A stretch of 52,489 nt of DNA from a virus. Each line of letters begins with the position of its first letter. Within the stretch, counting starts at the first letter, position 1. The translations under genes were made by a program, and so were the position numbers. The DNA lies in the IMG/VR virus record IMGVR_UViG_3300042864_000595, positions 1 through 52,489 of that record. One strand, 5' to 3'. This document shows, piece by piece, positions 3,535 through 43,680 of this stretch. The notes under the pieces are model-generated. The model made no database searches and was not told the DNA's origin. It saw only the letters and a program-made list of their open reading frames with translations.

Positions 3535-3559
3535 AATTATGAAAAAATAATCATGATAT

Positions 3560-3591: not shown

Positions 3592-3594
3592 TGT

Positions 3595-12706: not shown

Positions 12707-12737
12707 TTAGGAATGTAGTATATTATTTGTATATTTG
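12707..12737 (+). promoter_or_regulatory. Bacteroidota-type promoter of the LAGLIDADG gene
   Basis: TTAG at 12707-12710 (consensus TTTG) and TATATTTG at 12730-12737 (exact TANNTTTG), with 19 bases between. The ATG is four bases further on (12742), so the predicted mRNA is leaderless or almost so. This mirrors the promoter at 3560-3591. Match by eye only. Confidence 0.5.
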
Positions 12738-12741
12738 TTCT

Positions 12742-13623: not shown

Positions 13624-13625
13624 TT

Positions 13626-21983: not shown

Positions 21984-22214
21984 ATGGGAGATATGCCATG
22001 GGGACCATGCTACTATTGTAGTGATGAAGGTCCATTAAGAATTACCTACTTCAGCTTTCCAATTAAATGTGACTGTTGTAGTCCAAGTCATTCAGAAAGA
22101 GTTGAGCATTGCAGTAAATGTGAAGCTAGAATGCCTAGTCAAACAAAAGTATATATTAATACTAAAAAATTACAAGATCCTATTCACGAAGGTTTATTTA
22201 CAAAACTACCATGA
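21984..22214 (+). CDS. Zinc-ribbon-like small protein (76 aa)
   Basis: Three Cys groups are visible: C-Y-Y-C near the start, C-D-C-C in the middle, and C-S-K-C after HxxxxVEH. This gives two possible zinc sites in a ribbon or treble-clef-like unit. The start is the first ATG after the terminator. It overlaps the DNA polymerase gene by four bases and may be a small replisome or regulatory factor. Confidence 0.7.
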   Translation: MGDMPWGPCYYCSDEGPLRITYFSFPIKCDCCSPSHSERVEHCSKCEARMPSQTKVYINTKKLQDPIHEGLFTKLP

Positions 22215-26699: not shown

Positions 26700-29600
26700 T
26701 TATTTAAAGAATGTTGATTCAAATGATTTCCATGCTTGTTCCGGATTAGTATTGTATCCAGAGAATCCCATTAATTTTAAGAATGCTGCCCAAGCTTTGT
26801 TATCTCCTTTTTCCCATATACCTGTCTTGCGTTCATACTCTTCAGTAATGTTCCAAGGCATAACCTGATTTCCAAATTTAATTATTCTATCAAATGTACT
26901 TGTCATAGCTGATGGAGATCTTAATACTCTGACAGCATCAATAGGATTAATATATGATGCAGTTTCAGATCTCATTCTGAGTGTCTCATACAATAAGAAG
27001 TTATAAAGATAATTATCTTGGATTGCTTCTCTTTCATCATCATCTGGATCTACTAATATATTGGTCAGTATAAATGCTAGAGTAGACAAAGCCATAATAA
27101 TACTTAACTCAGCAAGTACTTTACTTATTTGTGCTTTCTGATAGGGTGTATATGTTGACCAGTTTTTAATTACATTGAATTTATACTGTCTAATATCAGA
27201 CATCATAGTATCTCCAAATGTTCTATAGTATCCTTCAGTTGGTGTACCAATTTCATGATCCATAGATACACGTTTGAATCTTCTCTTATAACCTGGAGCA
27301 ACATGTTTTCTCCACATTAATGCTAGGCGGCCAAGAGAATGTTTCTGAATTGTACCTTTATCAAAGTCATTATAAACACCATGCATATACTTATTTAACC
27401 CATGAAGTCTAGCTTGAATATCTTGTCTTTGTGTTTCTCCAAAAGGAACATACAAAGGTTTACCATCTTGATCTAGTTCTGCTTCACCCTTGCTATTAGT
27501 CTTTGCAATTTTTATTTTGCTGTGTGCCTCATCTGCACCATAGGTATTATATGCTTGGAGTAATGTTATTTCTTCTCCTGTAGCTTTATCTAAAACTTTA
27601 ATAGAATCAAATAAGGCAAACATAGTTGATACCTGGATTTCATATTCACCAAAGTGTTGGTTAAAGAAAAGAGTATCTGTACGGAATAATTTATTTGCCA
27701 TACTCATACTTACTTTCTTACCATAGTTATCTTTGAAGTTACCTTGCATTGGATCATATTTCTCTACTAACTTTCCTGCTAGGCTAGTAGGGGCAGGTTT
27801 TCCAAAATCACTTAAGATTCCCGGTAAGTTTTTAGCAAGAAATGCTTTACCTCTTCTTAGATTTTTACGGTTAAAGAACTGTCCACCTACAGCTTCAATC
27901 ATTATTTGGATATTACCTTGTAAGTTATTGGCCACACCTTTAAGTAAATCAGCTGCAATTGTAGTAATTGCTGAGTAACTCATAGCTGTATTGGTAATTT
28001 TAGTAAGTGATAATCCACCAAAGATCTCTTCAGCTTTTTGCATCTCACCATAAACTACCATGTCTATAAATGCATCAAGATGTTTTTTAGAATAGCTCTC
28101 ACCATTCTGACGGATGTACTCTTCATAACCAAGCTTCTTTGCAAATGCATCTAATACACCTTGACCTTTACTATTTGTTTCTGGAACTTTACGGGCACCA
28201 ACAATAGTTTTCATAAGAGATGTTTCAGCATTTATATTATTCAAAGCTTCATACTTATTAGCCATAGCACTAAAGACAAGAACAGACATTGCAAAATCTA
28301 GTGTAACATCTTTAGCATCCATCTTCTGTGTATAATAAATAGGCAAGAACTTTACATCCTCCTCAGATAATGAACCCAATGCATACTCTGTATCCCATGA
28401 TTGCATTTTGACAGCTTCACTTACATTTGTTTTAACAAAGTCTTTGAGACCATTTTGCATTATTCTTTCTAGATCAGACTTAGAAATAGAAGGAACTCTG
28501 AATTCTTTTTGTTGTGATTCAGGAAGTTTAGCTTGAGCTTCAAAATAAATCTTAAGTAACTCAGCATGATATCTACCTTTCTCATTTTTGGCAACATCAT
28601 TAGAGTCATACATGGCATCCCATTTATCACTCTTATATTTATTAGATGGAGTTGCAAGATCATCAAAGTAAGTTACTACACCTTTATACTCATTTACATT
28701 TTTCCTTTGCCATTTATTGTAATCATCCTCACTAATAATTTTGTTGTCTCTATCCTTTTGCATCTGGAGAATAATCTTATCTCTTTCTTCTTTTGGTCTT
28801 GCTTGTGTATTATCTATATACCATTTATTGCGGGCCTCCCACCAAGCCTTGATTTTAGCTGCTTCTTCCTTAGTAGCTTTTTCTCCAACTTTCTGTGGCA
28901 ATGGGCCCAACTTTTCAAAGAATTCTCTTTTTGCTTTGTTGAACTTACTCATGTCAAACTTCTGAACAAACTGTATTTCTTTTCTGCTTCCAGAAATAGT
29001 ACCGTCTTTATCATATATAGGTATCTCAACTTCATCATAAATTCCTTCATTGAATTTAGCTGTGTTATCTGAAGAAGCCGGAGCTGTCTTTCTATACTTC
29101 TGAAATGCATCAACCAGTCTGTCTCTGACTTTGATATCTTTTTGTCTAGCAAATTCTAACTGACTCTTAACAGACTTAGCAAATAAAGCCAAGGCACTAT
29201 CAGAAGATGTAATAAGAGGTGAAAGCAAAAAGTCAAGAACTCCTTCATCCCTATTGGCCATCTTCAGAATCTTCTCCATTGACCCTTGATCAACATCAAA
29301 TCCTTCAAAGAGTTTAAGTCTATCTTCTAGTTTTTTAATTTGTTTTTCTTTTTTCTTATCAGACATTTTGGTATTAGCTTCAATGTCCTTTATCTCTTGT
29401 TGCATTCTTGCTATTTCTTGAGGAATGGTTTTGTCTTGTAGGGTAGACTTGTACTCCACTAAATACTCTGCCATAAGAGGGATAGCTTCAGTGACTACTT
29501 TTTTCTTTACCTTGTCTCTGATTTTAATAGCGTCCGTTAACATCTTTTGTGGTGTCATTGGGCCATATGTATCTTCTACTCCAGCTCCTGTTGTAAAATA

Positions 29601-30131
29601 GTCCATCATATCAGCTGAGTCAATTTCATCTAAGATAGAATAGCTATTTGCAAAGTCATTGATACCAGTCAGCTCAATCATGATCTCTTTAGAAGTCATG
29701 TTCTTTTTATTAGCCAATAGCTTACCAAATCTAATCTCTACTTGTTTAGCTTTATCATAGGCATCCTTGACAAACATTCCAATTGAAGCTACACCATCCA
29801 TAGTTTCCACAGCAGTAAGTAATTCTTTTAACTTACTCTGCTTGTACTTTACATTTGCAATCTTCTTACTGTTTAAGATCTCAATTTGTTTGTTGATGTA
29901 AACTTTGATTCTTTGTACTAATCCAGAAAAATCATCATTCTCCAGCTCTTCTTGGCCAGGCACTCCTTGACGTTCATCCTCATAGTTCTCTTCTTTAACT
30001 ACAACATTTAAATCTGGATTGAATTCATACTCTTCTTCAATCCAAATTCTCATTGCTTCATCTTCATTACCATGAGCTCTTGCAAGAACATCTTGCCATT
30101 CTCTACTTGTTTTTCTTGGACAACTTAACAT
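26700..30131 (-). CDS. Giant virion-module protein downstream of the RNA polymerase (1143 aa)
   Basis: Starts MLSCPRKTSREWQDVLARAHG, an N-terminal module also seen at the start of the 307-residue neighbour (S-C-x-x-K-x(4)-[WY]-x-x-L-x(3)-[HY]-G). The middle is long and helical with many charged residues. FLPIYYTQKMDAKDVTLDF and LVFSAMANKYEAL are, from memory, motifs of a large protein encoded next to the virion RNA polymerase in crAss-like phages. One hydrophobic helix lies near residue 1010 (SIIMALSTLAFILTNILV). Likely packaged in the virion and delivered with the DNA; no enzyme motif is visible. Its start overlaps the end of the 307-residue gene by seven bases. Confidence 0.7.
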   Translation of the reverse strand: MLSCPRKTSREWQDVLARAHGNEDEAMRIWIEEEYEFNPDLNVVVKEENYEDERQGVPGQEELENDDFSGLVQRIKVYINKQIEILNSKKIANVKYKQSKLKELLTAVETMDGVASIGMFVKDAYDKAKQVEIRFGKLLANKKNMTSKEIMIELTGINDFANSYSILDEIDSADMMDYFTTGAGVEDTYGPMTPQKMLTDAIKIRDKVKKKVVTEAIPLMAEYLVEYKSTLQDKTIPQEIARMQQEIKDIEANTKMSDKKKEKQIKKLEDRLKLFEGFDVDQGSMEKILKMANRDEGVLDFLLSPLITSSDSALALFAKSVKSQLEFARQKDIKVRDRLVDAFQKYRKTAPASSDNTAKFNEGIYDEVEIPIYDKDGTISGSRKEIQFVQKFDMSKFNKAKREFFEKLGPLPQKVGEKATKEEAAKIKAWWEARNKWYIDNTQARPKEERDKIILQMQKDRDNKIISEDDYNKWQRKNVNEYKGVVTYFDDLATPSNKYKSDKWDAMYDSNDVAKNEKGRYHAELLKIYFEAQAKLPESQQKEFRVPSISKSDLERIMQNGLKDFVKTNVSEAVKMQSWDTEYALGSLSEEDVKFLPIYYTQKMDAKDVTLDFAMSVLVFSAMANKYEALNNINAETSLMKTIVGARKVPETNSKGQGVLDAFAKKLGYEEYIRQNGESYSKKHLDAFIDMVVYGEMQKAEEIFGGLSLTKITNTAMSYSAITTIAADLLKGVANNLQGNIQIMIEAVGGQFFNRKNLRRGKAFLAKNLPGILSDFGKPAPTSLAGKLVEKYDPMQGNFKDNYGKKVSMSMANKLFRTDTLFFNQHFGEYEIQVSTMFALFDSIKVLDKATGEEITLLQAYNTYGADEAHSKIKIAKTNSKGEAELDQDGKPLYVPFGETQRQDIQARLHGLNKYMHGVYNDFDKGTIQKHSLGRLALMWRKHVAPGYKRRFKRVSMDHEIGTPTEGYYRTFGDTMMSDIRQYKFNVIKNWSTYTPYQKAQISKVLAELSIIMALSTLAFILTNILVDPDDDEREAIQDNYLYNFLLYETLRMRSETASYINPIDAVRVLRSPSAMTSTFDRIIKFGNQVMPWNITEEYERKTGIWEKGDNKAWAAFLKLMGFSGYNTNPEQAWKSFESTFFK

Positions 30132-31048
30132 ATTGCTTTCAATAAGGTTTCTATAACTTTATTTAAATCTTTATCAGTTTTTGCATCTCTTAAAGACTCA
30201 TAGATATCTGCAGTATCAATACCTTTTACAGCAAGATACTCATCAAATCTTTGTTCTTTAATCATTTGCAATACTGCTCTGAAAATTCTATCTCTTTTTG
30301 CTTCATCAAGAGGCACACCAGGATCTCCTTCTGGAACCATTTCTCCAGTTTCTAAATCCATGTTTCTAAAGTAAACATCATTGTTATACTTATCTACTAA
30401 ATTGTATAAACCATTTTTGTTTAACTGCCATTTTAAAGTGCCTGCCATAAACTCTACAGGTTTACGTCCTCTATTTGTCTCTACTATAGACTGATAGGTG
30501 CGCAAACTATCTTCCAAATCTATTTCATCAGCACTAGACATCTCTTCTTCAATATCCTCAAAAAGATCATCAGTCTCAGATTTAACTCTAGGAGTGATCT
30601 CTACTATTATTGAGTTTGGATCTCTTGTTTCACGCAATTTAAAAATATCAGGATAAGCCTCTTGTAACATTTGCATTACCTTTTTGTTTGGCTTATATAT
30701 AATTTCTAAAGCTTCAACATTTATAGATGGTAACCTTGAATTTATAAAACCAGTGGTAATAAAGTATGCATCTTGGTATTTACTTATAACACCTTTCAAC
30801 ATACTTTTAAGTGCTGTCTCTGACATGTATGGATTAAGCTCCATTGCTCTCTTAATAAAACTAGGAATGTTTTTCTTTTTCTCAGTAAGCCAGTCTTTAA
30901 CTTCTTGCTTAGTAGGAATATCAAATGTTGAGTCTTCTGACCTTCCAGTATTTGTAGGATACCCACGGACAAAAGCCTCTGCCAGAGCGTCACCATAGAC
31001 ACTCTGCAAAGCCTTATAACCTTTATCTGCTTTGTTTATACAACTCAT
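30125..31048 (-). CDS. Virion-module protein with SC-type N-terminus (307 aa)
   Basis: MSCINKADKGYKALQSVYGDALAEAFV aligns by eye with the start of the 1143-residue protein. The rest is charged and helical with IFRAVLQMIKEQRFDEYLAVKGIDTADIYESL near the C-terminus. No catalytic motif. It overlaps the 4211-residue gene by four bases (ATGA) and the 1143-residue gene by seven, so the three are surely co-translated. Probably a virion cargo subunit or RNA polymerase accessory protein. Confidence 0.65.
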   Translation of the reverse strand: MSCINKADKGYKALQSVYGDALAEAFVRGYPTNTGRSEDSTFDIPTKQEVKDWLTEKKKNIPSFIKRAMELNPYMSETALKSMLKGVISKYQDAYFITTGFINSRLPSINVEALEIIYKPNKKVMQMLQEAYPDIFKLRETRDPNSIIVEITPRVKSETDDLFEDIEEEMSSADEIDLEDSLRTYQSIVETNRGRKPVEFMAGTLKWQLNKNGLYNLVDKYNNDVYFRNMDLETGEMVPEGDPGVPLDEAKRDRIFRAVLQMIKEQRFDEYLAVKGIDTADIYESLRDAKTDKDLNKVIETLLKAIC

Positions 31049-34000
31049 GATAATTTACATTTTAAACTTTCAATATATTCTTCTTCTGAATAGTCAAATG
31101 GCATGTTTTCAAATTCATCCATTAAGTCCTCTAAGTTACCTAATATTTTTTTCTGAGCTTCAGTAAGACCATTATAAAATTCAGATAGCATGACATTTGA
31201 ACCTCCAGCTACTGTTTTATTAACATTCCTAGATGGTTTTAATGGCATTCCTGGTGTTAGATCTGCAGCTCTTCTGAATGTAAGTGTGATTGTATAATTA
31301 CTTATTACTTTTCCGTTTGGTAATGTAATAGGTAACTGACTACCAACTTTAGCATCATTTATAGGTGTAGAATGAGTTAACTGAAATCTACCATTTCCAT
31401 TTAAACCAAATGTATAAATGCTACCGTCTTTAGTAAGTACTTCATTAGTATAACCTTTTAATTTTTCATCACCTCTAAGATATCTATCATCATATTGATT
31501 AGCAAAAGTCATCTTACCTTTATTGTTATCTACAATACCTAAACCAGCATTTGCTCCCATAGTATATACAATTACAGGATAACCTTCAGCAGACTTAGAT
31601 TCTGTTACATCTTTATGAGGAAAAATAAATTCATTTGGTTGATATATATTACCTATTACAGAATCATAATCTGACATGTCAATACCTAATGCATTTTCAA
31701 TATCATCAATTATTGGTTGTAATGCAGACATTGGTGGTAATGGATTACCGTTTTGGTCAAGCTCATGATATGCATATGTATACTCACTTGCACCTATAGT
31801 ATTACCTTTAGCATTCTGTCCTAAATCAATCAATCTATCTCTGACTCCGGTAGGGGCAAATGAATTTATCTTAATTGGTTTTGCTTTTATAGTAACTCTA
31901 CTCCACATCTTACCAAAATGAAACATTTGATTAGCTCCTTTTCCTACATTCTCTTTGTATGTTTGAGCTTGTATTTGAGGTTTTATAAGATCTAAAAACT
32001 GTTGTTTTTTAGTTTTACTAGGATTAGTTTCAGCTTGTACAACACCATAATCTTCTGATATTACTTTAACATTATCATTCTGATTTACAGGTTGTGCAGT
32101 TTGATTTAATGTTTTCTCATACACATCTTTAATAGCTTGTTTACCTTGTTCTGTTGTATTAGATGAAGTACCTATTCCAGCAAAATTTTTAGTTAATACA
32201 GGAGTATTTATAGATAAAAAATCTTGTTTAGAAGAATCCCATTTATACCAACCTTGTGGATAAGTACTATTAGCAACTTGATTAAATACATAAGTTGGTT
32301 TATTCATCATAATACCTAATTGAACAGCTACACTTGTTCCACCATTAACTTGAGGTACTAATGCCTTTTTAGTAACTTTACCCATAGAAATAGTAATATC
32401 AGTTCCTTTTGGAATTAAAGAACCTATAGCAAAAATTCCATCAGCATTTTTAACCTGTGCATAATTTCTAATCTTTTTTGTATTTCTTGTTGTATGATTA
32501 GATTCTATTCTACCCATAATTCTTTCAGCATTTGTCACAGCTATTTGAGCTTCACCAGTTGCTGGACCTTGAGTAGCTACATCACCAATATCATTGGAGG
32601 CATCTACAGGTTTAACACCTTTAGCTTTAAGTCTTGGATCTGAAACATCACCATCTATTGGTAATAAATAATGTTTATCATTTACCATTCCAAACTCTTT
32701 TCCTATTAAGTCCCATTCAGCATCATAACCTTTAGCACCACCTGAGTGATTTGTAAATTGAGATAAACCTGTAGGTTGATTTTGAGTAGATGGTTGAGTA
32801 CCTCTAAGTTCATTTCTTACTTCCATAAGTAATTTAGGAAACTCTTTACCCCATTTAGTTTTATCTTGTGTATGTGTGAGAGTGGCATTACCTGTAGCAA
32901 GTAATTTAGCAAGAGCATCTGGATTTTGTTCAAAAGAAGATTTAATTAAGATTTTCATATTAATTGAAGAATCCGCATCCCATCTTTGTTCATCTAATCC
33001 TTTTACTGTCCTACCAAATGCTCTAGCCTGAGCTGCTGATTTTTTATTAATATCTTCTACAATAGCATTTTTTTGATCCTCTGTATAAGATTTACTATAG
33101 TTTAATTTCTCTAATTGATAAGCATGCTCCACAGAAGGATAAGTTATACCATCTCCTAACATAAAAGGTCTTTTAGCAAAATTACTTAACTCAGCATTTT
33201 CTCCTGTACTTGCATAAATATTAATCTTAGTTTCTGGTCCAGGTAAATTACCAGCAGATGGTTGAGTAGGACCTTGTTCTAAGAAGTCAGACATATCTCC
33301 AAAGTCATCTTCAGAGAATGTACTTAAGAAATCTTCTACAGATTCTTCTTCATTTAAATTACTTGGGTCAATCATGTAGTTTTTAAACTGAGACTTTGCA
33401 TTCAATCTGTTATAGATTCTTTCTAATGTTTCTTCTGACAAATCATTATTCAAGAAAGAGTTTGCAGCATTTTGCATAATTTCAGTAAACGCCTCTGGAT
33501 CCAAGACTTTAACAAATCCTAATTTAGAATAACCAGTTCCATGTTGATAATACATAAACATAGAAAAGTTTTTGAAAACATCACTGATTCTATTATTATC
33601 CATTTTCTGAACTTCCTTATTGGAGTTTACTACTTTTCTTACAGTATAATCTGCTAGTTGTCTAAGATTTTTATAATAATCATCAGCAACAGTTCCTTTA
33701 GCTGTAGCTTTATCATTCAACTCTAAAACATTTACATCTTTTGTAAATTTAGCTGGAGCCAATTGAGCCAGTACAGGAAAGTTATCTTTGATGTTTTGGT
33801 CTTCAAACTCATTAATTATATCCATAACCATTGTAGTATATGAATACTTAGTAGTACCCATAATAAATGCACGGTTATAACTGTTCATCAATGCTGTTTG
33901 AGTAATATATTTATCATAACCCAAATCTTCTGAGCCTGCTTGGAAAGAAAGCTTAAGAAAGTCTTTATTCTTAGCTAAAGATTCTTTAGTGTAAACAGTA

Positions 34001-37000
34001 GTTAAATATTCTTTCTCTATTGCAAACTTAAGATAAGTTGGAAATGTTGGGAAAGGATTTTCTCCAGCATCAAATGTATCTAAGTTTTTAGCTCTGTTAC
34101 CTTCTGGAGTATTATTTGAACTCAAGAATATCCTAGCATCAAAATCTTTTCTAGCTTGTTCTAAATTAACTTTTACATCCTTATCTGTAAATGATACTGC
34201 AGGACCTGTTGTTACTTCTTTAATTGGTAAGCTGTGAACTGATTCCGGTAGGGTAACCGGGCTTCCATCATTATCAAGAGAGTTAGACTTAGTATTCTGG
34301 AAAATGTAATTTACCACTGCATTGTTGTACATGTTAATAAATCTTTCTTTTCCTTTTACACCTGGTCCAAACTTTTGAACAATCATATCTCTAGTTTGGT
34401 CTATCTTTTTCTCAACAAACTTTGAGATAGTTTCATTAAGTCTCAATGGAAATAATGGAACTACAAGATCCATAATCAAACCACTCTTATAGAATGAAGA
34501 AAGAATAGAATCTTTTCTTAGTCTTTTTAAGAAATCAGAATCAATTTTAGATGTTTCATCAAATAGTTTAAATGCATCATCCCTCTTCTTAATCTGAAGA
34601 GTAGTATCCATTAAACCTGTGTCTGGACTAAATGCCATTTCCAATTCATCCATTCCCTTAAATTGTTTTTCTAACTGCAGCATGTGCATTAAAATAGCCA
34701 AGTTTTCTATACTAGGATTGCGTCCTCCTCTTACTAAAGATTGTAATCTATCTTTAGAAACTGTAGAAGATCCTGGGAATGCTCTATTCCATAAAGCCTC
34801 TGATGCATAATAGAAGTTATCATTATTAGCAATACCACCGGATCTTTTGAATAAAGTTTTTAAACTATCATAGTCTGTATTTTCTTCAAATTCTTTTAAC
34901 TCAATAATTTGATCTACTGGAAAGTCATTACTATGAAATATTCTTTTTCCAGTAGCTTTTTTTAGAACTTCTTCTCCTTCTGCATCTTTTGTTTTAATGA
35001 TGTAAACTTTATCTTGATCCTTTTGTTTTAGCATATCAGCTATGTCCATCATTCTGCGGTCATTTGCATAGTTTGCAACCTGCTTAACTATTTTCTTCAT
35101 TTCTTCACCACCTGCAGAAACAAGAGAAGCAACAGTCTCCCTAAAGGCTGTAGATTTTACTTGATGACTAGGAACAGGTGCTTCTTGAAGTTTAGCCATT
35201 GAGCCTCCATAGTACATTTGTTTCTGAATGTAATCTACAATCCAAGGGTTATTGATAAAAGCAAATACTTCTGGTACACTTACTCCAGCTTCAATAAGGT
35301 GATTGATTGTACCCAATGCCTCTTTTACAATTTGTAATTTAAATGGAAAAGGATTATTAGCACGGTCAAGCAAACCTTGAAGACCATGAGAAAAAATATC
35401 TCCAATCTTTTCACCATCTACATTATTCTGATTAGATAAAGAAATATTTTCATTAAACATAGTTTTATTATGTCTCATACGGATTACAACATCATACTGA
35501 GCAGGAATTTCATCATACTTTTTAGTTTCATCATTCCACACAGTGGCATTGTATGATAACGGCATAATAGCTCCTACACTTTTGAATAATGCATGCACTT
35601 TGTTTTTCTTGGCCATAATACCAAGCGGCATATTACCAGATAACATTGCTTCATGCTGACTTAAGTTGTAATCATTATCTAATGATCTTGATGGACTCAT
35701 TACTTCTTTGTCACCATTTATCCTTACAGACTCACCATGTGCATTCTTTTTGTTGTTATACCCTCTAGAATACTTGTCATAGAATTCAACTTCATCTTCT
35801 ACAAGATATGTATTATTAGGTTTTGTTAAACTTGCATGATTATCCGGTAAGGAGAGTATATCCCGCGTGCTTTTGATTAACTTGTTTTGTGCAGCTTTTT
35901 TGTACTGATCAATTAAAGCTTGAGGATTTGGTAACCCTTTTTCTTTTCTTACTTTTTTGCTAACACTATTAGATTCTTTTACCATCTTGGTAAGCTGTTC
36001 CAAATTTTCTGCAGGTGCCTTAGTTAAAGTACCATCAGAATTTATATTTGGTAGCATGAAGAAAATCTTATCAACGTCAAAGTCAGATCCAGCTTTTGCA
36101 ACAATCTCAGTTGGTACAATTACTGTGTTACCTGCACTAGCATCAAGGAAGTGCCATACTTCAGCAAATTCCATAGAGTTAGCAGCATCTGTTGGGATCC
36201 TTGGTCCTACAATAGTGATAAGCTCTCTGTTCTTATCTAACCACTCATCATTTTTAATTAACTCATTAAGACGGTCTGTAGTTCCAATAAGTTCTCCATC
36301 AGGATGTTTTAAATTAAGAATGTTCAAAAAGTCACCATTCATAGGTATTGCAACTTTCATAGCTGAAGTTGGTTGTCTTGTACCATCTTTATTTAATTTA
36401 CCTCTAGTATAAAAAGGTAAGTTGTTAGAACCCAGATATTTTCTGATTAATTCATCATTATTTTTAATAGCTTCATCTCTTTGGTAGGCACTGTCCCACA
36501 CACCGTTATAGAACGTGGATGGAGCTTGAACCATAGATTCTCCCTTTGTCTTCTGTTTTATTATACTTTTTTGAATTCTATTTACAATAACTTTCTCAAG
36601 CATGTCTGCCTCCGGGTGAATAGAAAAGTCCATAGATAGCTGATCACTAAGTGTAGTATCCAGAAGTTTAATCAAATGCTCAGGAACTTCTTTAGCTCCT
36701 AATTCATCTCTGATAAGTTCAATAAACTTATCTAACTTTCCAACATACTTTTCTGTCTTAGGATCATATTCATAACCTATCTTGTTTAATAAATCCAGAG
36801 CTAATGTTTCAGTGTAATCCTTAACATTAGCTTTGTAGTTATTAGCTATTTCAGCATTTGCTTTGTTAATTACATCTCCAACATTGAAGAGACCATCTAA
36901 TAATAATACACGTTTCTGAGTAGGATAGCTAATTTCTTTCTTAAGTTTGCTTGCAACTTTAGTTACATCCTTAAGATACTCCAAGTAGATAACATTTTTT

Positions 37001-40000
37001 CTAATTGGTGCATCTGCAGAAACTGTTTTCTGTGTTTCATCACCAAAGATGTTATCAAAGTCTCCAGTCATAGTAAGTGTGGCAACTTTAGAACCAGAAC
37101 CAAATGCTACATACTGAAGATTTTCCTTCATCATTTTTACATGTAAATTATAAAGCTCTGTACCTTTTACTGCAATAGTTGGAATAATAGGAGCTACTGC
37201 AAACTTATGCATTCCTGTTGTTGCTATAGGAGCATTAGCAATTGATCCATAGTAATGAAGTTTGTAAATTGGAAAGAACTCTTTTACTTTTAAAGGATCA
37301 ACTTGTTCTCCGGCAACAATCTGTTGGTATAATGTTTCTTGCGGAATGGTCCAGCTTTTACCTTGTTTTTTAAGTGTACGGTATGCATCAAATGTCATAA
37401 AGGCTGCACCATCAGATTCTGTCATCTTCTTATAGGCCTTAGCATCTTTTGCAAGTCTTCTATCTATTTCTTTCTTTAATGCAGCTTTATCTGTGTATAA
37501 AGGGGTTAGGGCAGCTGTATATTGCTCTTTCCAGCTTTCTAACATTTCATCTAGATATACAGACTTTCTTTCTGCATCTGCTATGACACCGGTATTCAAT
37601 GTACCATTCATAACAAACTTATCTAAGTCAAGACCTGTTTCTTTAGCAAGTTTTTTAGCATAAGTATTCTTGTTGAACACTTTGTTAATGAATTCATGCA
37701 TGTACTTATCATTGACAAATCCATCACCATCTGATGTAGAACCAGGTGCACGTTTACTTGCTTGTTGTTTGTCATGATTGAACTGAGAAAGATCACCATT
37801 GAAAATGTTAAACATTTCAAATTTATGTATCCAGTCATTAAACAAATAAGATTTAAGAACAGTTTTCTTTGATTCATCAGATATATCACCTTTAGTGTCT
37901 ATACCAGCTTTTTCATAAACCTTATTGTCTACATAAGGCAGATCTTTAAAGTAATCATTATACATTGCTTCTGTTTTCTCAGTGAAATAATCAGCAATGT
38001 CTTTTTGAATTTTTAAATAAAGTCCTTGGTTATTTCTGATATGGGTAGGTAAATCTACCAAAGGATCGGATGCTAAAGCATATAAATCTTTTTTGGTTTG
38101 ATCTCTCAAGATGTTATCAAAAGCAGTGAAGAATTCTCCAGCTCTACCAATTAATTTATCATTCTTATCTTTAATCTCTCTGTTATAACCTTTGATATTT
38201 TTAAGATCCTGTGGATTCTGTTTAAAGTATCTGATTCTATCAAACTCTGCAGCAATATAGTCAAGGAAATAACCACCTACAGCAACTATTTCTCCATCAC
38301 TAATTTGTTCATTTGGTTTAGTTACAAACTTACTGATATCAATGTATAAGCTTTGATCAACACCATTTGTAATACCATTGACAATAACTTTCATTTTACC
38401 ACCCAGTAACTTGATACCATATGCAGATTTCTTTTCAGCATGGCGGATAAACTCTGCTATACCATTTAAGCTCATAGTATGAAACTCTTGAAAGAATTTA
38501 CCTAACTTATCTAAGTCAGATGTATTCACTCCTTCCATCTCTGCTATCTGTGTACCTGCAGTTTGTAAAAGCTCTAAAGATCTGGTTCCTTTTCTATCAA
38601 AGGTTCCTTGAGCAGTGTCAAACATAGCTCCAAAAATTTTAGATCTTAAAGTAAAGAATGATTTACCTGGTCTCAAGTGTGACATATAACCTAGCTCTGG
38701 TTTGCTCCAGAAATCACTAAGATTTTCAACATTGTTTATTGCATCTACAGTAACTGTAACTTGACTATGGTTTACATTTTCAAATACTCTGTTACCGTCC
38801 GGTAGCAAAATACCTGGATTAGCAGAATCATATCCATACTGAGATTGCAACTCAGCAATTCTTTTAAGGATATTCTTTTCTGCTACTTCTTTCTTAAAGC
38901 TTTTTAGTATTCCTTTTGGAATTTCACCTCTTAGTGTCCCTACTGGATTACTAACAAATTTGTTTAAGAATTCAAGTTGTTGTTCAGTGCTTTTATTTGA
39001 TTTCTGAATGTCAGAAAAATCTTTTATAATATCATAGATATATGGTAACCCAAAATACTCTGCTCTATCTTCTATATTTTTTTTGATAACTGGTAAAGCA
39101 TCAAGCTTCATACCTAATGCTGCAGCAAACTCAAATGCTTTAGATGTATCTAACTGACCAGGATATTTCTTATTCTCAAATGCAGTAATTACGTCATCCA
39201 GTTTTAAAGTAGATTGGTTATCTGAATTCTTTTCTATGTAATCATTTGCTATACTACTTTTGAAAATTGATTCAAATTTTCTAATAGTACTGTCTACTTC
39301 AATAGATGATTGAGTAACATCAGCTTCAAATCCTTTTAATATATTTTCTGATTCCCCTGTAAGGAAGTTTGTTCCCGGCTCGTATTGTGGGAACACAGTG
39401 AATTGCCAGTATTTAACTGAAGGTTTTGCAAATGTTTGCCAGAATGAATTACTCACATCTATTTCAAATGTATTAGTAATCAATCTTGGATCTGGGAATT
39501 TAGTTTCAATAAGCTGAGCTATTTCTGGAAAGTTTTTTGCTTCTGCCATTAATGTCTCATATGCTTTTTCTCTATCTCTTATACCACCAATTGCTTTAGT
39601 AACAATGTTCCAAACCTTTTTAAAATCTGCGCGCTCTTTAAAACCAAGTCTGTTGTATGAAGTATTACCATTACGGTCTACTTTATATAAACTTTTAAGA
39701 ATGTAGATTACTTCTTTATCAGCTAGTTGCATCAAAGATTTTTTAGTACCCGCTGAACTACCAAATGGTGTTTCAGAATCATGAGTTTCATTTTCTTGAT
39801 CTTCATCAATCTCATCACCATTCTCATCTAACATATCAAGATCAAGCTCATATTTCTTTTTAGATAAATCAAAATCTGAATTCTCTAAGTGATATGCAAT
39901 TGTTCCAGTAGCTTCAATACCTTTAATATCCCATTGTGGATCTCCAAAGTTATCTACAGCAGCTTGTAGAATTCTAACATTATCTAACATAAATTCTTGT

Positions 40001-43000
40001 TCTGCAGACAACATGTAATCAGGAACATCTTTAACTTCAAAATCTGTATACTCTTCAGCTCCTCCAGCTTTGTAATTATCAAACTGAACTTGAGCATCCT
40101 CTAAACTAGAAACTACAATTATCCCTACCGGCTTCTTACCTTTCTTAATAGATTTATGTGAATAGAAATCACCAACTATTTTGATACCATGCCAAGACTC
40201 ACCTCTAACTCTGGTACCTCTACGCATGTTAGCATCAAGATTATCAAAACCATCAATCTGTGATTTAAGGAATACATATTTGTCTTCTCCTTTGTTAGAT
40301 CTTAATACAGCTACTGCTTCTGATTCAATTGTTTTCTGATTAGGGTCAGAAGATTCTAAAGCTTTAATTTCACTAAAAGGTGTTACACCTTCTTGAGAAT
40401 GTAATTTTTCTTTAAACTCATCCAACTTATCTTGTAATCTTTCTTTGATTACCTCATACATGAATGCACGGTGGTCTGGATCAATAAGTAAACCAATAGT
40501 TCCAGATTTTAAACTATTATAGTTACCAGTTTCTTCAGCTTCTTCAACTCTTTCTCTGTACCAATCATCAACAAAATCAGAAATGATCATGTCCATAGTA
40601 TCAGAAACTAATCTAGAATCTTGATCACTAAGGGCACTATCACTTGGTCTATTTAACTTGCTGATACCACGGTTCAACATCATAAAGTCAACATTATCTA
40701 TATTGGCTTTGTATGATCTCACAAATGATTTCTTATTAGAACTATAGTTTAATTTCTCAAACAATTCTCTCACAGCTGGAACATTCATTACATCTGTGAT
40801 AACTTCAGTTGGATTAATTGCTTTTTTACCAAACAAGCTTCTGATAAAATTCATAATCTTTCTGAAGAGTTTATTTCTTATAGGAGAACCTTTCTTAATG
40901 TAATTGCTCTTCATATAAGTTCTAAAGTCTTCAGCTAGTAACTCATCAACTGCCTTATAGTCCATAGACTTATAGGGTTGGTTTCCGCTGGCATCTTTGT
41001 AATTAATTACTTCATCATAAAGACTGTATTTTTCTTGGCGGGTAAGAAACAATTGAGAGAAACCATGCCATGCTTCATGGTAAACATCAACCAATGTACC
41101 TACACCTTTATTAATTTGAATCTTACCTTTAATATCAGGATTGGCCAATGTAGCACCGCTAACTACAAAGCGCGCAAATACATCTGAGTTAACCAGATTA
41201 AATGCATGTTGTAGTTCAATATGTTTTTGTAACTCTTTTCCTAATGCCGTATTGTTCCACCAGTCAAGGACTTTAGCTGTATCTTCTTCACCAATTTCAT
41301 CAGCCATATATCCTTCACGGTTTAAGCTATCATTCTTAGGTGCTCTAGAACGTAAGCTTCCTTTCTTAGGAGAAGGATTTATTGTTGTTGGGTCTGGCAT
41401 TTCAGGCTCAACAGTTTTTTGGATTATTTCAACTTCTCTCTGAAGAGGTCCTTCTGCTTTTGGAAATGCTCTATTGATTATATCAGTAACTGTATTAATT
41501 TGTTTACCGTTTATGTATCTTGCACCGGCAAATATATCACGTAACTGTTCAGCAGCTTCTCTGGTATATCTTTGACTAATATTAGTATTGATAGCTTGAA
41601 TAAGGCTTGCAGCATAATAGTATGTATCATACTTTCCTTCCATTCCTTGTTGAGCTAACTGAGCTCTAAACTCTGGAGAAAGAGCGCGATCAGCAATAAC
41701 TTGTGCCTCAATTTCCATAGGAGATTTATCAGCATTTTCCAATGCTTTTCTTTCTTCTGCTAATTTAATTGATTCCTCAAGGGCCTCTTCAAATGTTTGT
41801 GATGCTGCCGCAGAAGCAATTTTAATTTCTTTTTCCACTTTATTCTCTTCATTAAACAACAGGTGCTTATTGTAGAAACCAGGATCTCCGTCAAATAAAT
41901 CAACGTAACCATCAAGTGTGGATAAAAAATCAATGTAGTTTGCAACTTCAATTTGTTTTGTATTTGAATTGTATACTAAATACTCCTCATCATTCAACAA
42001 GTCAGATTTGTATGACATGTAAGTTGCTTTACCATTAGCTCTACCAGATTTGAGAGTGTCACTAAAAGTCTTAATACCGGCATCTAATTTTTCTCTACTA
42101 GCCTTATCTAATACAGCTTTAGAAATAACAAAATCAAAAATAGGCTCAGTAACAAATCCATACTTGTCACCTACTTTATCATATAGCTTAATTCTAAATG
42201 ATTGGTTCACCATATCAGGAATGATCTCATGCTTTCTCATAGTATAAGCAAGCTTGGTTGTACTATCTTCCGGAATAAACTGTGAATAGAAATCTTTTTT
42301 AGTTTCAAAAGGAATATTAGGATCAAACATAACTGCAGCAATCTGGTCAGCTACACTGTCTGGCATAGATGATCTGTTTACTTGGAAGTCTGTTCCATTT
42401 AAATTAATTACAGCTCTACCCTCTCCAAAGTTACCTTCTGCTTTTTTAAGAGTACGGATACTCTTTAAGTCTTTCTTTGTTGCTCCTGGTATCTTTAGAA
42501 AGTCCGATAGGGGAAGTTTGGTAGCTGTAAGATCTGAAGTAACTCCGGCACTAAGACCTGAGAATTCCAACATCATGTCATTACCTAATGCACTTTCTCT
42601 TATTTGAAACAATCTCTTAAGTTCTTTCTCTCTATCATCTTTTACTTTCTCAAGATATGTAGGATAGTCTCCGTCAATTTTTTCATCATATGTTAGTTGG
42701 GCATAAGTCTCAATTGGCATTAACTGTTCTTCTTTTCCATAGATATCTGTTACTGTATAACCTTTTGAGGTTTGTCTAACATCTCTCATGAATTGATACA
42801 CTAGAGTTCCATTACCTTTAGTAGTAAGGTTTCCTTCTGTATCAAAATATAAGTTCTGTCCAGCATCATCTGTAATAACAAGTATTACTCTTTTATCACT
42901 TTGAGTAACACCTTCTTTATTTCTTCCTGTGCTAGTATAAAAGTTTGAATCCTTAATCTCTTGCTGAGTTGTAGGATCTAAATCATTAAAATTCTGTTGA

Positions 43001-43680
43001 GCAAATGCATATAAGTTTGTTGCTTTAACTTTTACTTTCTTTCCTTGATATGTAAACTCTCCATCAAATGGATCTTGCATACTTAATACATCACCTAGAA
43101 TTGCAAGATTAGTAAGGATTTGAGCTCTTGGTTTATCAAGTCTTTCTGAGTAAGTATCAGTTTTTCTAGAAGGATCTACCGGAACAAATGATTGAAGTGT
43201 ACCAGACATAACCACAGGAGTTTTAAGTCTTGCTTCAACTCTTGGATTTGTTTCTTTTTTCTCATCTTCAGGACCCTCTTCTTCTTCATCAGAAAATTCA
43301 AGTGATAGTTGATGTGCAGCCTCTCCTTTTAAATCTTTAGTATCTACAGGTTTTATATATTTCTTAAGTACATTCTGAAATCCTTCACCGTTTGGTTTTG
43401 AGAAATCAGCCATCAACCCGTAAATATTTTCTAATCCTTTTACTAAAGGAATCTTATCACTAAATGATTTTGTAATAATTAAATTTATTACACGCGGAGT
43501 ACTTTGCAACCATTTAGCTGCAGTTTCAGGATCAGCCTTTTTAACTGATTCCTCAAACAACTTCTCCATGAAATCATTTACGTCAAAGGTTTTATCATTT
43601 CCTAGTCTATCTTTAATAGCGCGGAATACATACTTGTAAAAATTTTCAAGAGGTAACTGGGTAATTGGACAACTGATCAT
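31045..43680 (-). CDS. Virion RNA polymerase polyprotein with NADAR, SLOG and AlkB-like tail (4211 aa)
   Basis: The start is MISCPITQLP (ATG at 43680). H868-E-A-W-H872 with a candidate third ligand E917 suggests a zincin peptidase domain. APIIPTIAVKGTELYNLH ... GSGSK2198 and D2533-F-D-V-D2537 resemble the two double-psi barrel sites of the single-chain crAss-like virion RNA polymerase, whose DxDxD binds the catalytic metal. After acidic and Pro/Gln-rich linkers come three domains. NADAR is at about 3484-3623 (ELSNFAKRPF, SVEHAYQLEK, AQARAFGR, KWGKEF). SLOG/YpsA-like is at about 3640-3830 (S3646-G-G-A-K-G, N-G3780-G-T-S, VFNQ ... WYKWDSS). AlkB-like 2OG-Fe(II) oxygenase is at about 3895-4140 (H4022-K-D4024, H4103, R4136). 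It is expected to enter the host and transcribe early genes. The tail suggests ADP-ribose and base-repair functions (inference). Confidence 0.85.
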   Translation of the reverse strand: MISCPITQLPLENFYKYVFRAIKDRLGNDKTFDVNDFMEKLFEESVKKADPETAAKWLQSTPRVINLIITKSFSDKIPLVKGLENIYGLMADFSKPNGEGFQNVLKKYIKPVDTKDLKGEAAHQLSLEFSDEEEEGPEDEKKETNPRVEARLKTPVVMSGTLQSFVPVDPSRKTDTYSERLDKPRAQILTNLAILGDVLSMQDPFDGEFTYQGKKVKVKATNLYAFAQQNFNDLDPTTQQEIKDSNFYTSTGRNKEGVTQSDKRVILVITDDAGQNLYFDTEGNLTTKGNGTLVYQFMRDVRQTSKGYTVTDIYGKEEQLMPIETYAQLTYDEKIDGDYPTYLEKVKDDREKELKRLFQIRESALGNDMMLEFSGLSAGVTSDLTATKLPLSDFLKIPGATKKDLKSIRTLKKAEGNFGEGRAVINLNGTDFQVNRSSMPDSVADQIAAVMFDPNIPFETKKDFYSQFIPEDSTTKLAYTMRKHEIIPDMVNQSFRIKLYDKVGDKYGFVTEPIFDFVISKAVLDKASREKLDAGIKTFSDTLKSGRANGKATYMSYKSDLLNDEEYLVYNSNTKQIEVANYIDFLSTLDGYVDLFDGDPGFYNKHLLFNEENKVEKEIKIASAAASQTFEEALEESIKLAEERKALENADKSPMEIEAQVIADRALSPEFRAQLAQQGMEGKYDTYYYAASLIQAINTNISQRYTREAAEQLRDIFAGARYINGKQINTVTDIINRAFPKAEGPLQREVEIIQKTVEPEMPDPTTINPSPKKGSLRSRAPKNDSLNREGYMADEIGEEDTAKVLDWWNNTALGKELQKHIELQHAFNLVNSDVFARFVVSGATLANPDIKGKIQINKGVGTLVDVYHEAWHGFSQLFLTRQEKYSLYDEVINYKDASGNQPYKSMDYKAVDELLAEDFRTYMKSNYIKKGSPIRNKLFRKIMNFIRSLFGKKAINPTEVITDVMNVPAVRELFEKLNYSSNKKSFVRSYKANIDNVDFMMLNRGISKLNRPSDSALSDQDSRLVSDTMDMIISDFVDDWYRERVEEAEETGNYNSLKSGTIGLLIDPDHRAFMYEVIKERLQDKLDEFKEKLHSQEGVTPFSEIKALESSDPNQKTIESEAVAVLRSNKGEDKYVFLKSQIDGFDNLDANMRRGTRVRGESWHGIKIVGDFYSHKSIKKGKKPVGIIVVSSLEDAQVQFDNYKAGGAEEYTDFEVKDVPDYMLSAEQEFMLDNVRILQAAVDNFGDPQWDIKGIEATGTIAYHLENSDFDLSKKKYELDLDMLDENGDEIDEDQENETHDSETPFGSSAGTKKSLMQLADKEVIYILKSLYKVDRNGNTSYNRLGFKERADFKKVWNIVTKAIGGIRDREKAYETLMAEAKNFPEIAQLIETKFPDPRLITNTFEIDVSNSFWQTFAKPSVKYWQFTVFPQYEPGTNFLTGESENILKGFEADVTQSSIEVDSTIRKFESIFKSSIANDYIEKNSDNQSTLKLDDVITAFENKKYPGQLDTSKAFEFAAALGMKLDALPVIKKNIEDRAEYFGLPYIYDIIKDFSDIQKSNKSTEQQLEFLNKFVSNPVGTLRGEIPKGILKSFKKEVAEKNILKRIAELQSQYGYDSANPGILLPDGNRVFENVNHSQVTVTVDAINNVENLSDFWSKPELGYMSHLRPGKSFFTLRSKIFGAMFDTAQGTFDRKGTRSLELLQTAGTQIAEMEGVNTSDLDKLGKFFQEFHTMSLNGIAEFIRHAEKKSAYGIKLLGGKMKVIVNGITNGVDQSLYIDISKFVTKPNEQISDGEIVAVGGYFLDYIAAEFDRIRYFKQNPQDLKNIKGYNREIKDKNDKLIGRAGEFFTAFDNILRDQTKKDLYALASDPLVDLPTHIRNNQGLYLKIQKDIADYFTEKTEAMYNDYFKDLPYVDNKVYEKAGIDTKGDISDESKKTVLKSYLFNDWIHKFEMFNIFNGDLSQFNHDKQQASKRAPGSTSDGDGFVNDKYMHEFINKVFNKNTYAKKLAKETGLDLDKFVMNGTLNTGVIADAERKSVYLDEMLESWKEQYTAALTPLYTDKAALKKEIDRRLAKDAKAYKKMTESDGAAFMTFDAYRTLKKQGKSWTIPQETLYQQIVAGEQVDPLKVKEFFPIYKLHYYGSIANAPIATTGMHKFAVAPIIPTIAVKGTELYNLHVKMMKENLQYVAFGSGSKVATLTMTGDFDNIFGDETQKTVSADAPIRKNVIYLEYLKDVTKVASKLKKEISYPTQKRVLLLDGLFNVGDVINKANAEIANNYKANVKDYTETLALDLLNKIGYEYDPKTEKYVGKLDKFIELIRDELGAKEVPEHLIKLLDTTLSDQLSMDFSIHPEADMLEKVIVNRIQKSIIKQKTKGESMVQAPSTFYNGVWDSAYQRDEAIKNNDELIRKYLGSNNLPFYTRGKLNKDGTRQPTSAMKVAIPMNGDFLNILNLKHPDGELIGTTDRLNELIKNDEWLDKNRELITIVGPRIPTDAANSMEFAEVWHFLDASAGNTVIVPTEIVAKAGSDFDVDKIFFMLPNINSDGTLTKAPAENLEQLTKMVKESNSVSKKVRKEKGLPNPQALIDQYKKAAQNKLIKSTRDILSLPDNHASLTKPNNTYLVEDEVEFYDKYSRGYNNKKNAHGESVRINGDKEVMSPSRSLDNDYNLSQHEAMLSGNMPLGIMAKKNKVHALFKSVGAIMPLSYNATVWNDETKKYDEIPAQYDVVIRMRHNKTMFNENISLSNQNNVDGEKIGDIFSHGLQGLLDRANNPFPFKLQIVKEALGTINHLIEAGVSVPEVFAFINNPWIVDYIQKQMYYGGSMAKLQEAPVPSHQVKSTAFRETVASLVSAGGEEMKKIVKQVANYANDRRMMDIADMLKQKDQDKVYIIKTKDAEGEEVLKKATGKRIFHSNDFPVDQIIELKEFEENTDYDSLKTLFKRSGGIANNDNFYYASEALWNRAFPGSSTVSKDRLQSLVRGGRNPSIENLAILMHMLQLEKQFKGMDELEMAFSPDTGLMDTTLQIKKRDDAFKLFDETSKIDSDFLKRLRKDSILSSFYKSGLIMDLVVPLFPLRLNETISKFVEKKIDQTRDMIVQKFGPGVKGKERFINMYNNAVVNYIFQNTKSNSLDNDGSPVTLPESVHSLPIKEVTTGPAVSFTDKDVKVNLEQARKDFDARIFLSSNNTPEGNRAKNLDTFDAGENPFPTFPTYLKFAIEKEYLTTVYTKESLAKNKDFLKLSFQAGSEDLGYDKYITQTALMNSYNRAFIMGTTKYSYTTMVMDIINEFEDQNIKDNFPVLAQLAPAKFTKDVNVLELNDKATAKGTVADDYYKNLRQLADYTVRKVVNSNKEVQKMDNNRISDVFKNFSMFMYYQHGTGYSKLGFVKVLDPEAFTEIMQNAANSFLNNDLSEETLERIYNRLNAKSQFKNYMIDPSNLNEEESVEDFLSTFSEDDFGDMSDFLEQGPTQPSAGNLPGPETKINIYASTGENAELSNFAKRPFMLGDGITYPSVEHAYQLEKLNYSKSYTEDQKNAIVEDINKKSAAQARAFGRTVKGLDEQRWDADSSINMKILIKSSFEQNPDALAKLLATGNATLTHTQDKTKWGKEFPKLLMEVRNELRGTQPSTQNQPTGLSQFTNHSGGAKGYDAEWDLIGKEFGMVNDKHYLLPIDGDVSDPRLKAKGVKPVDASNDIGDVATQGPATGEAQIAVTNAERIMGRIESNHTTRNTKKIRNYAQVKNADGIFAIGSLIPKGTDITISMGKVTKKALVPQVNGGTSVAVQLGIMMNKPTYVFNQVANSTYPQGWYKWDSSKQDFLSINTPVLTKNFAGIGTSSNTTEQGKQAIKDVYEKTLNQTAQPVNQNDNVKVISEDYGVVQAETNPSKTKKQQFLDLIKPQIQAQTYKENVGKGANQMFHFGKMWSRVTIKAKPIKINSFAPTGVRDRLIDLGQNAKGNTIGASEYTYAYHELDQNGNPLPPMSALQPIIDDIENALGIDMSDYDSVIGNIYQPNEFIFPHKDVTESKSAEGYPVIVYTMGANAGLGIVDNNKGKMTFANQYDDRYLRGDEKLKGYTNEVLTKDGSIYTFGLNGNGRFQLTHSTPINDAKVGSQLPITLPNGKVISNYTITLTFRRAADLTPGMPLKPSRNVNKTVAGGSNVMLSEFYNGLTEAQKKILGNLEDLMDEFENMPFDYSEEEYIESLKCKLS

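Follow-up and report, generated by a model that had tools for sequence, protein, structure and literature searches.

The virus record IMGVR_UViG_3300042864_000595, analysed here over its whole length of 52,489 bases and referred to as the window, encodes on its minus strand (31045-43680) a crAss-like RNA polymerase (RNAP) open reading frame (ORF) of 4211 amino acids (aa) in a single unbroken frame, and this polypeptide was confirmed to end in NADAR, SLOG-like and AlkB-like domains. The three make up an accessory tail (aa ~3481-4211, encoded by 31045-33240 on the minus strand), which an initial annotation had described as three signatures following the polymerase part and joined by Pro/Gln/Asn-rich linkers; every motif named there stands at the residues given, within the one ORF, and the linkers between the domains (aa ~3629-3640 and ~3863-3876) are rich in Gln, Asn, Pro and Thr. 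Chance is excluded, because of the profile scores and the conservation in relatives, for the NADAR and AlkB-like domains, and for the SLOG-like region as a conserved domain. On balance, we regard the tail as probably an exchangeable enzymatic payload, packaged and ejected as part of the polymerase polypeptide in the manner of a 'polyvalent' protein. The ORF is laid out as follows.

31045..43680, minus strand: crAss-like RNA polymerase ORF with C-terminal accessory domains, 4211 aa
35533..36543, minus strand: conserved RNAP catalytic region, aa 2380-2716, with the DFDVD motif at 36070-36084
32830..33225, minus strand: NADAR domain, aa 3486-3617; key residues E3518 and K3525, conserved H3603; matched by Pfam, PHROG 1017 and YbiA
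32191..32760, minus strand: SLOG-like (cpYpsA-type) Rossmannoid domain, aa 3641-3830; HSGGAxGxD, RNxxQV and GGT motifs
31264..32001, minus strand: AlkB-like 2OG-Fe(II) oxygenase domain (2OG, 2-oxoglutarate), aa 3894-4139; H4022, D4024, E4027, H4103 and R4136, with Thr4130 at the usual first Arg

The polymerase part carries the DFDVD form of the DxDxD catalytic motif (aa 2533-2537). Its matches include the crAss-like RNAP subunits phi14:2 g066 and Carjivirus communis gp44, and motif and homology together identify it as a crAss-like virion RNA polymerase. Both phi14:2 g066 and crAss001 gp50 have the homologous catalytic subunit and the same terminal cysteines and occur in virions, but are far shorter (2180 and 2412 aa versus 4211 aa). 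A tail 100% identical to that of the window occurs on one other contig (L001) and is not independent evidence.

The NADAR assignment was borne out by Pfam PF08719 (E=3e-12; 47.5 bits against a curated cut-off of 35.1, and 51.8 bits in the genome search), which places the domain in the NADAR superfamily, whilst a profile of nine NADAR sequences gave 1e-13 with YbiA (2b3w) and 3e-10 with the NADAR structure 8bau. The motifs SVEHAYQLEK and AQARAFGR begin at aa 3516 and aa 3550. Within 19 aligned NADAR rows, E3518 is kept in 17 (one gap, one Arg) and K3525 in 18 (one gap), and the seven-residue spacing of this catalytic pair is that of E43 and K50 in the NADAR of P. nicotianae, where K50 contacts phosphate and the two glutamates E43 and E125 bind the distal ribose (PMC11543638, PMC11125620). 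The position of E125 is occupied by Asp in the BC4488 family and by His in phage NADARs (PMC11543638, PMC11125620), and His3603, kept in 18 of the 19 rows with one gap, may be such a phage-type third catalytic residue. The Glu and Lys fit a guanine-ADP-ribose hydrolase, and removal of ADP-ribose is a well motivated prediction for this domain: DarT1 modifies guanine in single-stranded DNA, and NADAR reverses the modification (PMC11543638, PMC11125620). Two points weigh against a simple transfer of this function. The catalytic Glu of YbiA falls in an insertion beside His3603 when YbiA is aligned, which makes this third catalytic position tentative, and an Escherichia coli phage NADAR that hydrolysed guanine-ADP-ribose in vitro did not rescue cells from DarT1 (PMC11125620). 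The NADARs of DarT1-NADAR toxin-antitoxin pairs, YbiA and phage gp30.3 resemble that of the window in profile, in the conserved Glu and Lys and perhaps in a phage-type His, but are mostly free-standing or toxin-linked rather than fused to a polymerase.

In the AlkB-like domain, HKD at aa 4022, H4103 and R4136 are as first annotated. The window's domain by itself scored 19 bits with Pfam PF13532, below the cut-off of 31.2; the same domain in the RNAP tails of relatives was matched by Pfam at E=4.5e-23 (L019) and 7.4e-21 (L042), and a family profile of 18 rows gave 2e-8 with chains of E. coli AlkB and 2.5e-13 with rice ALKBH1. Since motif reading alone was judged insufficient, both this domain and the SLOG-like domain were modelled. 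The AlphaFold2 model of the former (mean pLDDT, the model's own per-residue confidence score, 80.6) superposed on E. coli AlkB (4zhn) with a VIA Z of 18.8 and 2.5 Å over 182 residues, and Foldseek gave 9e-8 to 3t3y; the model thus makes the domain clear by fold, as the initial annotation had proposed. The iron triad HxD...H is intact, with H4022, D4024, E4027 and H4103 invariant in the 18 rows and R4136 nearly so, one row being cut short. The domain therefore shares with E. coli AlkB and rice ALKBH1 the AlkB fold and the HxDxxE...H...R pattern; unlike them, the window's subgroup has Thr for the first Arg of RxNxTxR (Thr4130 in the window), an Arg that is kept in 10 of 17 readable rows and replaced by Thr in the other seven, which form this subgroup. 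The two arginines of RxNxTxR bind 2OG, as does Arg204 in E. coli AlkB. Because Thr4130 replaces the first of them, binding of 2OG or activity may differ, and the domain is for this reason called AlkB-like and not an AlkB demethylase. Of the catalytic residues, the NADAR Glu and Lys and the AlkB HxDxxE, second His and last Arg are kept in homologues, the first Arg of RxNxTxR in only part of them.

The SLOG-like reading is the best for the central domain, is held with moderate confidence, and is the weakest of the three domain calls. SGGAKG lies at aa 3646 and NGGTS at aa 3779, and an alignment of 62 sequences of the family has invariant residues that include SGG, D18, RN..QV and GGT. Pfam gave no match for the window's domain alone; 16 of the 62 members match Pfam cpYpsA weakly (best 0.0019) and four match LDcluster4 weakly (best 0.0036), both of these being SLOG families. 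With the structure model (pLDDT 94), the first VIA row among the Foldseek candidates was 3imk, a putative molybdenum carrier that we take to be of the cpYpsA type (Z 7.6, 3.7 Å over 119), followed by a row at 4.3, and nucleoside deoxyribosyltransferases ranked lower (3.5 and below). Among predicted viral structures, the best matches of the model were other phage proteins, including cr130_1 and cr272_1. Several observations count against the call: six of the 62 members match nucleoside deoxyribosyltransferase, at best with 8.5e-5, better than the best SLOG-family match; Foldseek against the PDB gave no significant match with the model; and a VIA Z under 8, such as this 7.6, may, by the tool's own warning, reflect only a common arrangement. 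Nor did hhalign, run with single template sequences, support one family comprising the window's domain and the cpYpsA domains that Pfam finds in L025 and L033, and since it gave no link to the window's family, L033 is described by Pfam as AlkB / cpYpsA / NADAR. The SLOG claim of the initial annotation is moderately supported.

Comparison with relatives indicates that the RNAP tail is a module cassette whose modules turn over fast on the tree of polymerase cores. Loci were sampled as the best 80 of 499 by RNAP-core similarity and the best 80 of 118 in a second list; in the former, removal of 10 near-identical loci left 70, of which 63 had a complete 3' end, the seven open ones being left out. 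More than 1150 aa follow the catalytic motif in 29 of these 63 RNAP ORFs, and at most 1150 aa in 34. By local profiles, with Pfam run singly on part of the ORFs, the 63 contain NADAR in three, SLOG in seven (four of the window's family and three by Pfam cpYpsA only), AlkB in six, ART in six, a RecD-like helicase in nine and an A1S_2505-like domain in three. A Pfam tally over 76 tails (80 listed, the duplicates L028, L043, L046 and L068 being left out; eight of the 76 were chosen via the window's tail) gave NADAR 8, 2OG-Fe oxygenase 9, AAA_30 helicase 9, DUF7831 9, cpYpsA 4 and ART-PolyVal 4. The 54 nonredundant crAss-type RNAP ORFs in which one or more of the three modules occur, a set that includes the window's copy and some ORFs cut by contig ends, comprise three with NADAR-SLOG-AlkB, one with SLOG-AlkB-NADAR, one with AlkB-NADAR and a Pfam cpYpsA domain between the two, five with SLOG-AlkB, four with AlkB-SLOG, two with NADAR-SLOG, one with SLOG-NADAR and 37 with a single module. 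The fusion order of the window recurs in L019 (with ART inserted) and L109 (with a helicase behind); three-domain tails are also arranged as SLOG-AlkB-NADAR in L006 and, with a Pfam cpYpsA, as AlkB-cpYpsA-NADAR in L033.

Mapped on a 104-row tree of RNAP cores, NADAR (12 rows) needs at least 11 changes, AlkB (17 rows) 15, ART (10) nine, the A1S_2505-like domain (eight) seven, the helicase (20) 11 and SLOG (41) 16. This tree leaves out 37 rows removed at 95% identity, three copies of the window (L001, L098 and L177), and RNAP spans of <220 or >700 aa; the sample is SLOG-enriched and several long branches are weakly placed. A tree of 54 complete core-chosen RNAPs gave small counts of rows and changes: SLOG four and four, NADAR two and two, AlkB five and five, ART four and three, helicase six and three, and A1S_2505 one and one. 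Set against rapid turnover is that the 104-row changes include contig-cut ORFs, where a module may be unseen. A statistical coupling of the modules that goes beyond the sharing of a slot is likewise not secured: the SLOG/AlkB co-occurrence declines from a Fisher p of 0.0008 among the 63 ORFs to 0.018 among the 29 long-tailed ones, NADAR pairs are not significant among the latter, and independent pairs on the tree are too few (two of three agreeing in direction, p 0.5).

The same tails hold further domains. A RecD/PIF1-like superfamily 1 helicase is fused in crAss RNAP tails (L039, L042, L048, L090 and L095 among others), and a domain of the A1S_2505 family (NCBIfam NF049995) occurs in the tails of L005, L011 and L057, in some beside NADAR or AlkB; a local profile also places an A1S_2505-like domain in L029 and L079. 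A module provisionally labelled 'MACROLIKE' was rejected as a macrodomain, the three copies tested belonging to the A1S_2505 family. The tail of L021 contains an RNase H domain (E 1.4e-11), and that of L041 an AAA_33/zeta-toxin-like kinase followed by ART-PolyVal domains. In GenBank, parts of such tails already carry the labels DUF1768 (cr126_1) and DprA-like (cr113_1, cr130_1). The RNAP gene of cr108_1 (L184 7627-19217) is interrupted at the catalytic motif, its first ORF ending in AGSD and the second beginning with LYDIDKM, and that of cr131_1 (L017 12601-16806) is apparently interrupted likewise, gp48 beginning with MFDIDHLY; the interruptions are possibly introns. No relatives of the window's tail were found in bacterial or archaeal genome contigs with six peptide patterns of the window itself.

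Replacement within a slot is seen in the nearest relative, L018, whose polymerase is 84% identical over 3483 columns. Its counterpart of the NADAR slot (aa 3486-3640) holds a different domain between linkers in which 8 of 10 and 23 of 30 residues are identical to those of the window, and its contig ends in the apparent start of an AlkB of the other subgroup. The replacement domain had no Pfam match, an unconvincing best PDB sequence match (E 0.053) and no phage record, and was found on two further viral contigs (L187, L188) at 81-83%. It was considered as a macrodomain and not accepted as one, the likeness being by eye only, with no Pfam or convincing PDB match. Packing alone hardly accounts for a dissimilar domain in the same slot, an observation that bears on the proposal that the tail domains fold but are inactive remnants that merely aid packing or subunit contact. 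That proposal could draw on the AlkB arginine lost in 7 of 17 rows and on the variable residue at SLOG 3787 (Gln 39, Glu 14, Ala 9 among 69 rows); we consider it very improbable, as key NADAR and AlkB residues are kept in diverged copies and in 34 of the 63 complete RNAP ORFs no more than 1150 aa follow the motif, so that these do without a long tail.

Exchange of modules also extends across virion polymerases that are unrelated. The RNAPs nearest to that of the window carry distant SLOGs (core/SLOG identities of 85%/39% in L018, 68%/40% in L019 and 74%/36% in L140), whilst the closest SLOGs sit on distant RNAPs (26%/87% in L003, 24%/85% in L101 and 27%/84% in L002). In L103, a SLOG 78% identical to the window's accompanies a polymerase core without a BLAST match to the window core, and an alignment of window aa 3639-3947 to aa 712-1020 of L103 reaches 62%. 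L103 is an N4-like virion RNAP (vRNAP): over aa 1400-2700 (1301 aa) it has matches as good as 3e-104 to annotated Schitoviridae vRNAPs, a search of PDB sequences with its polymerase having found nothing. A RecD/PIF1-like helicase is N-terminal in this protein. The polymerase of the Klebsiella phage Pylas, which matches N4 vRNAP structures at 2e-42, has a SLOG 34% identical to that of the window before its catalytic domain. N4-like vRNAPs such as that of Pylas thus resemble the window ORF as cysteine-free giant polymerases, in which a SLOG from the window's family immediately precedes the catalytic domain, but are single-subunit enzymes without BLAST-detectable similarity to the crAss RNAP core.

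Altogether, 68 nonredundant SLOG domains of the window's type were distributed over 41 crAss RNAP ORFs, five N4-like vRNAPs, three other long ORFs and 19 short ORFs, of which some are fragments, and part of the loci had been chosen through their RNAP. That 46 of the 68 are on an RNA polymerase polypeptide, with this same reservation on sampling, could mean that the tail acts on the single-stranded DNA of the transcription bubble and there removes the guanine-ADP-ribose and alkyl groups that block first transcription. The DarT1 and NADAR chemistry on single-stranded guanine cited above (PMC11543638, PMC11125620), the match of the AlkB profile and fold to E. coli AlkB, a nucleic-acid enzyme, and the frequency of the RecD-like helicase (20 of 104 tree rows) would agree with such clearance of the template. 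The SLOG domain does not fit it, however, and modules lie N- as well as C-terminal of the catalytic region, which leaves their closeness to the active centre variable: NADAR lies upstream of the RNAP core in L007 and L016. Modules are also found on cargo other than the polymerase, ART being located in the next ORF of L003, L101, L115 and L149. Clearance of the template by the tail is therefore judged unlikely. Rather, because like modules occur N-terminal of the catalytic centre, in N4-like polymerases and in a neighbouring cargo protein, the polymerase would be the delivery vehicle and not the partner that sets the chemistry.

That the tail is delivered with the polymerase is suggested by packaged homologues and by a cysteine signature. 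The phi14:2 proteins g065-g067 are annotated from tandem mass spectrometry of virions, and mass spectrometry likewise detected crAss001 gp47, gp49 and gp50 in virions (PMC10172136). Only two cysteines occur among the 4211 aa of the window ORF, one close to each end:

43669..43671, minus strand: Cys4 of the RNAP ORF, one of its only two cysteines
31057..31059, minus strand: Cys4208, 4 residues from the C-terminus, the other of the two

The listed plus-strand ORFs of the window, in comparison, have 76 cysteines in 6686 aa. Not one of 3150 random internal 12-mers from the 63 complete RNAP ORFs contains Cys, although one or two internal cysteines are present in six RNAP ORFs (L035, L064, L070, L076, L096 and L097). 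In ORFs of >900 aa the modules are equally devoid of cysteine, with none in 8167 aa of SLOG, 2032 of NADAR, 4119 of AlkB, 3671 of ART and 11,528 of helicase, whereas 12 free-standing SLOG ORFs have 14 in 1869 aa, a rate that predicts ~61 in the fused SLOG set. Because the fused modules are Cys-free and the free-standing SLOGs are not, the tail appears to be under the same constraint as the ejected core. As far as their contigs reach, the N4-like vRNAPs of L013, L014, L103 and L168 have no cysteine and that of L156 has one. Against this stands that the signature is not universal, internal cysteines being present in the counterparts of cr126_1, cr130_1, cr131_1, Carjivirus, jaberico and cr108_1, and one in crAss001 gp50. 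The tail is nonetheless probably ejected as part of the polymerase, and the injected kit of the initial annotation is to that extent upheld by packaged crassvirus homologues and a Cys-free tail, albeit indirectly.

The functions of the tail, namely de-ADP-ribosylation, nucleotide binding and base repair, are predicted from its domains. NADAR would strip ADP-ribose from guanine in the incoming DNA, where host DarT1-like toxins would have placed it, or from related nucleotide adducts; the SLOG-like domain would bind or cleave ADP-ribose or another nucleotide derivative; and the AlkB-like domain would oxidatively remove a base modification from nucleic acid. The most likely role of the payload would be to reverse bacterial defences during the opening minutes of infection. 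Part of this kit might instead be directed at soluble signals, NADAR and SLOG destroying or binding alarm molecules of the cyclic ADP-ribose type, as in Thoeris and other systems, with AlkB as a passenger. A general proposal of this role exists for the NADAR and SLOG domains of phages (PMC9503650), and VIA ranks first, for the SLOG model, a protein that we take to be of the cpYpsA type. Few polymerase copies enter per virion, however, for instance six of each RNAP protein in crAss001 (PMC10172136), which is unfavourable for sequestration but no obstacle to catalysis, and we think a decoy of this kind quite unlikely.

The terminal cysteines of the RNAP ORF recur in its neighbours, which in the window are the following.

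43685..50338, minus strand: upstream cargo ORF, 2217 aa, ending in Cys2217, with one internal Cys (1015)
30125..31048, minus strand: small downstream cargo ORF, 307 aa, with Cys3 and Cys307 as its only cysteines
26700..30131, minus strand: last cargo ORF, 1143 aa, with Cys4 as its only cysteine

The window thus has a chain of terminal cysteines running from ORF 43685 (C-terminal) through ORFs 31045 and 30125 (both ends) to ORF 26700 (N-terminal only), and phi14:2 g067/g066/g065 and crAss001 gp47/gp50/gp49 show the same chain. Across loci, a Cys is found within the last 12 residues of the RNAP ORF in 62 of 63, within the first 12 residues of the ORF after it in 62 of 63, and within the last 12 residues of the ORF before it in 51 of 52; the RNAP frames of the exceptions L075 and L089 are apparently interrupted. 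Paired junctions numbered 122 of 122, a count that omits places with Cys at neither end and one L075 junction, so that the preceding figures are the ones to go by. Outside the RNAP block, three of 68 coding sequences (CDS) have Cys in the last 12 residues and nine in the first 14, this control being a hand-made list from phi14:2, crAss001 and the window's plus strand that leaves out some short or cut CDS and includes crAss001 gp45 and gp46, themselves cargo. A first control was discarded as contaminated by cargo junctions, 115 of its 300 pairs having both cysteines.

Where genes are apparently fused, the pair is missing. RNAP runs into the downstream subunit in Carjivirus (annotated as fused) and jaberico (judged by size), and there the N-terminal Cys facing the upstream neighbour is kept and the C-terminal Cys absent; in cr113_1 the RNAP motif is at aa 3222 of a longer protein and only the C-terminal Cys is present. 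In all three apparent fusions the pair of the fused junction is therefore absent. We tentatively suggest, as a possibility short of an even chance, that consecutive cargo proteins are joined C- to N-terminus by a disulfide or other Cys link and ejected as one train. Such a train would thread through the tail of the virion as a single chain and be released by reduction in the host cytoplasm, gene fusion and Cys pairing would be equivalent ways of joining consecutive cargo, and the accessory kit would be a freely exchangeable carriage. Opposed to this are the internal cysteines of gut crassviruses and, further upstream, Carjivirus gp47 and jaberico gene49, which have a near-C-terminal Cys next to a product without cysteine. 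In crAss001, disulfides are reported in the tail barrel, fibre hubs and portal vertex, none being reported for the cargo in the accessible text, and the cargo must partly unfold to pass, its order of extrusion being probably set by packing and interactions (PMC10172136). Carjivirus, cr108_1 and jaberico (L183, L184 and L185) have annotated thioredoxin genes in the neighbourhood of the RNAP block, and a link between these genes and the Cys pairs is possible.

The tail of the window resembles the polyvalent proteins of Iyer et al. 2017 (PMC5512222), which are large and multidomain, predicted to be ejected with DNA, and mix unrelated enzyme domains; several biochemically unrelated enzyme domains are likewise combined in the window ORF. 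N4-like virion RNAPs are listed amongst them with ART, lysozyme, PBECR and metallopeptidase domains (PMC5512222), whereas the carrier here is a crAss-like RNAP and the kit NADAR-SLOG-AlkB, and the main text of that article has no mention of NADAR, SLOG, AlkB or crAss. An anti-immunity role of phage NADAR and SLOG, directed at ADP-ribose-based defence, is already in print, in the NAD-ADP-ribose network of Iyer et al. 2022 (PMC9503650). The same superfamilies are proposed there to act against such immunity and are sometimes fused together, SLOG shares one Rossmannoid clade with DrHyd and TIR, and NADAR is found in polyproteins with polymerase in some animal RNA viruses (PMC9503650). The phage domains are typically stand-alone in that account, unlike the polymerase fusion of the window, and crAss, AlkB and 2OG do not occur in the main text of PMC9503650. 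No prior report was found of the NADAR-SLOG-AlkB/RNAP fusion or of the Cys pairs, a weak absence given that subscription journals lay mostly outside the search; neither appears in the accessible portions of PMC7886860, PMC10172136, PMC10136315, PMC9569702, PMC10607447 or PMC10052503. The initial interpretation is, taken as a whole, partly supported.

Elsewhere in the window, a LAGLIDADG-like ORF adjoins a NUMOD-like endonuclease ORF (12727-14012), and 22211-23620 has a weak family-B DNA polymerase match (E 2.9e-4, below cut-off). PADLOC matches in the window were not accepted as a defence system, since they reflect NADAR- and helicase-level similarity to candidate systems only.

These findings extend the theme of polyvalent proteins to a polymerase family in which we have seen none described, with the cysteine pattern as a strong side finding. 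Probable anti-defence enzymes are plugged into the virion polymerase of crassviruses, the order to which the most abundant phages of the human gut belong, and of their relatives from the environment; the virion polymerase of the N4 type, which is unrelated, receives the same plug-ins. The ordered exit of giant cargo from the virion was left open by the crAss001 structure (PMC10172136), and the Cys pattern offers a simple test of such exit for proteins of several hundred kilodaltons. Counter-defence that is independent of transcription thereby becomes searchable via RNAP tails, and testable.

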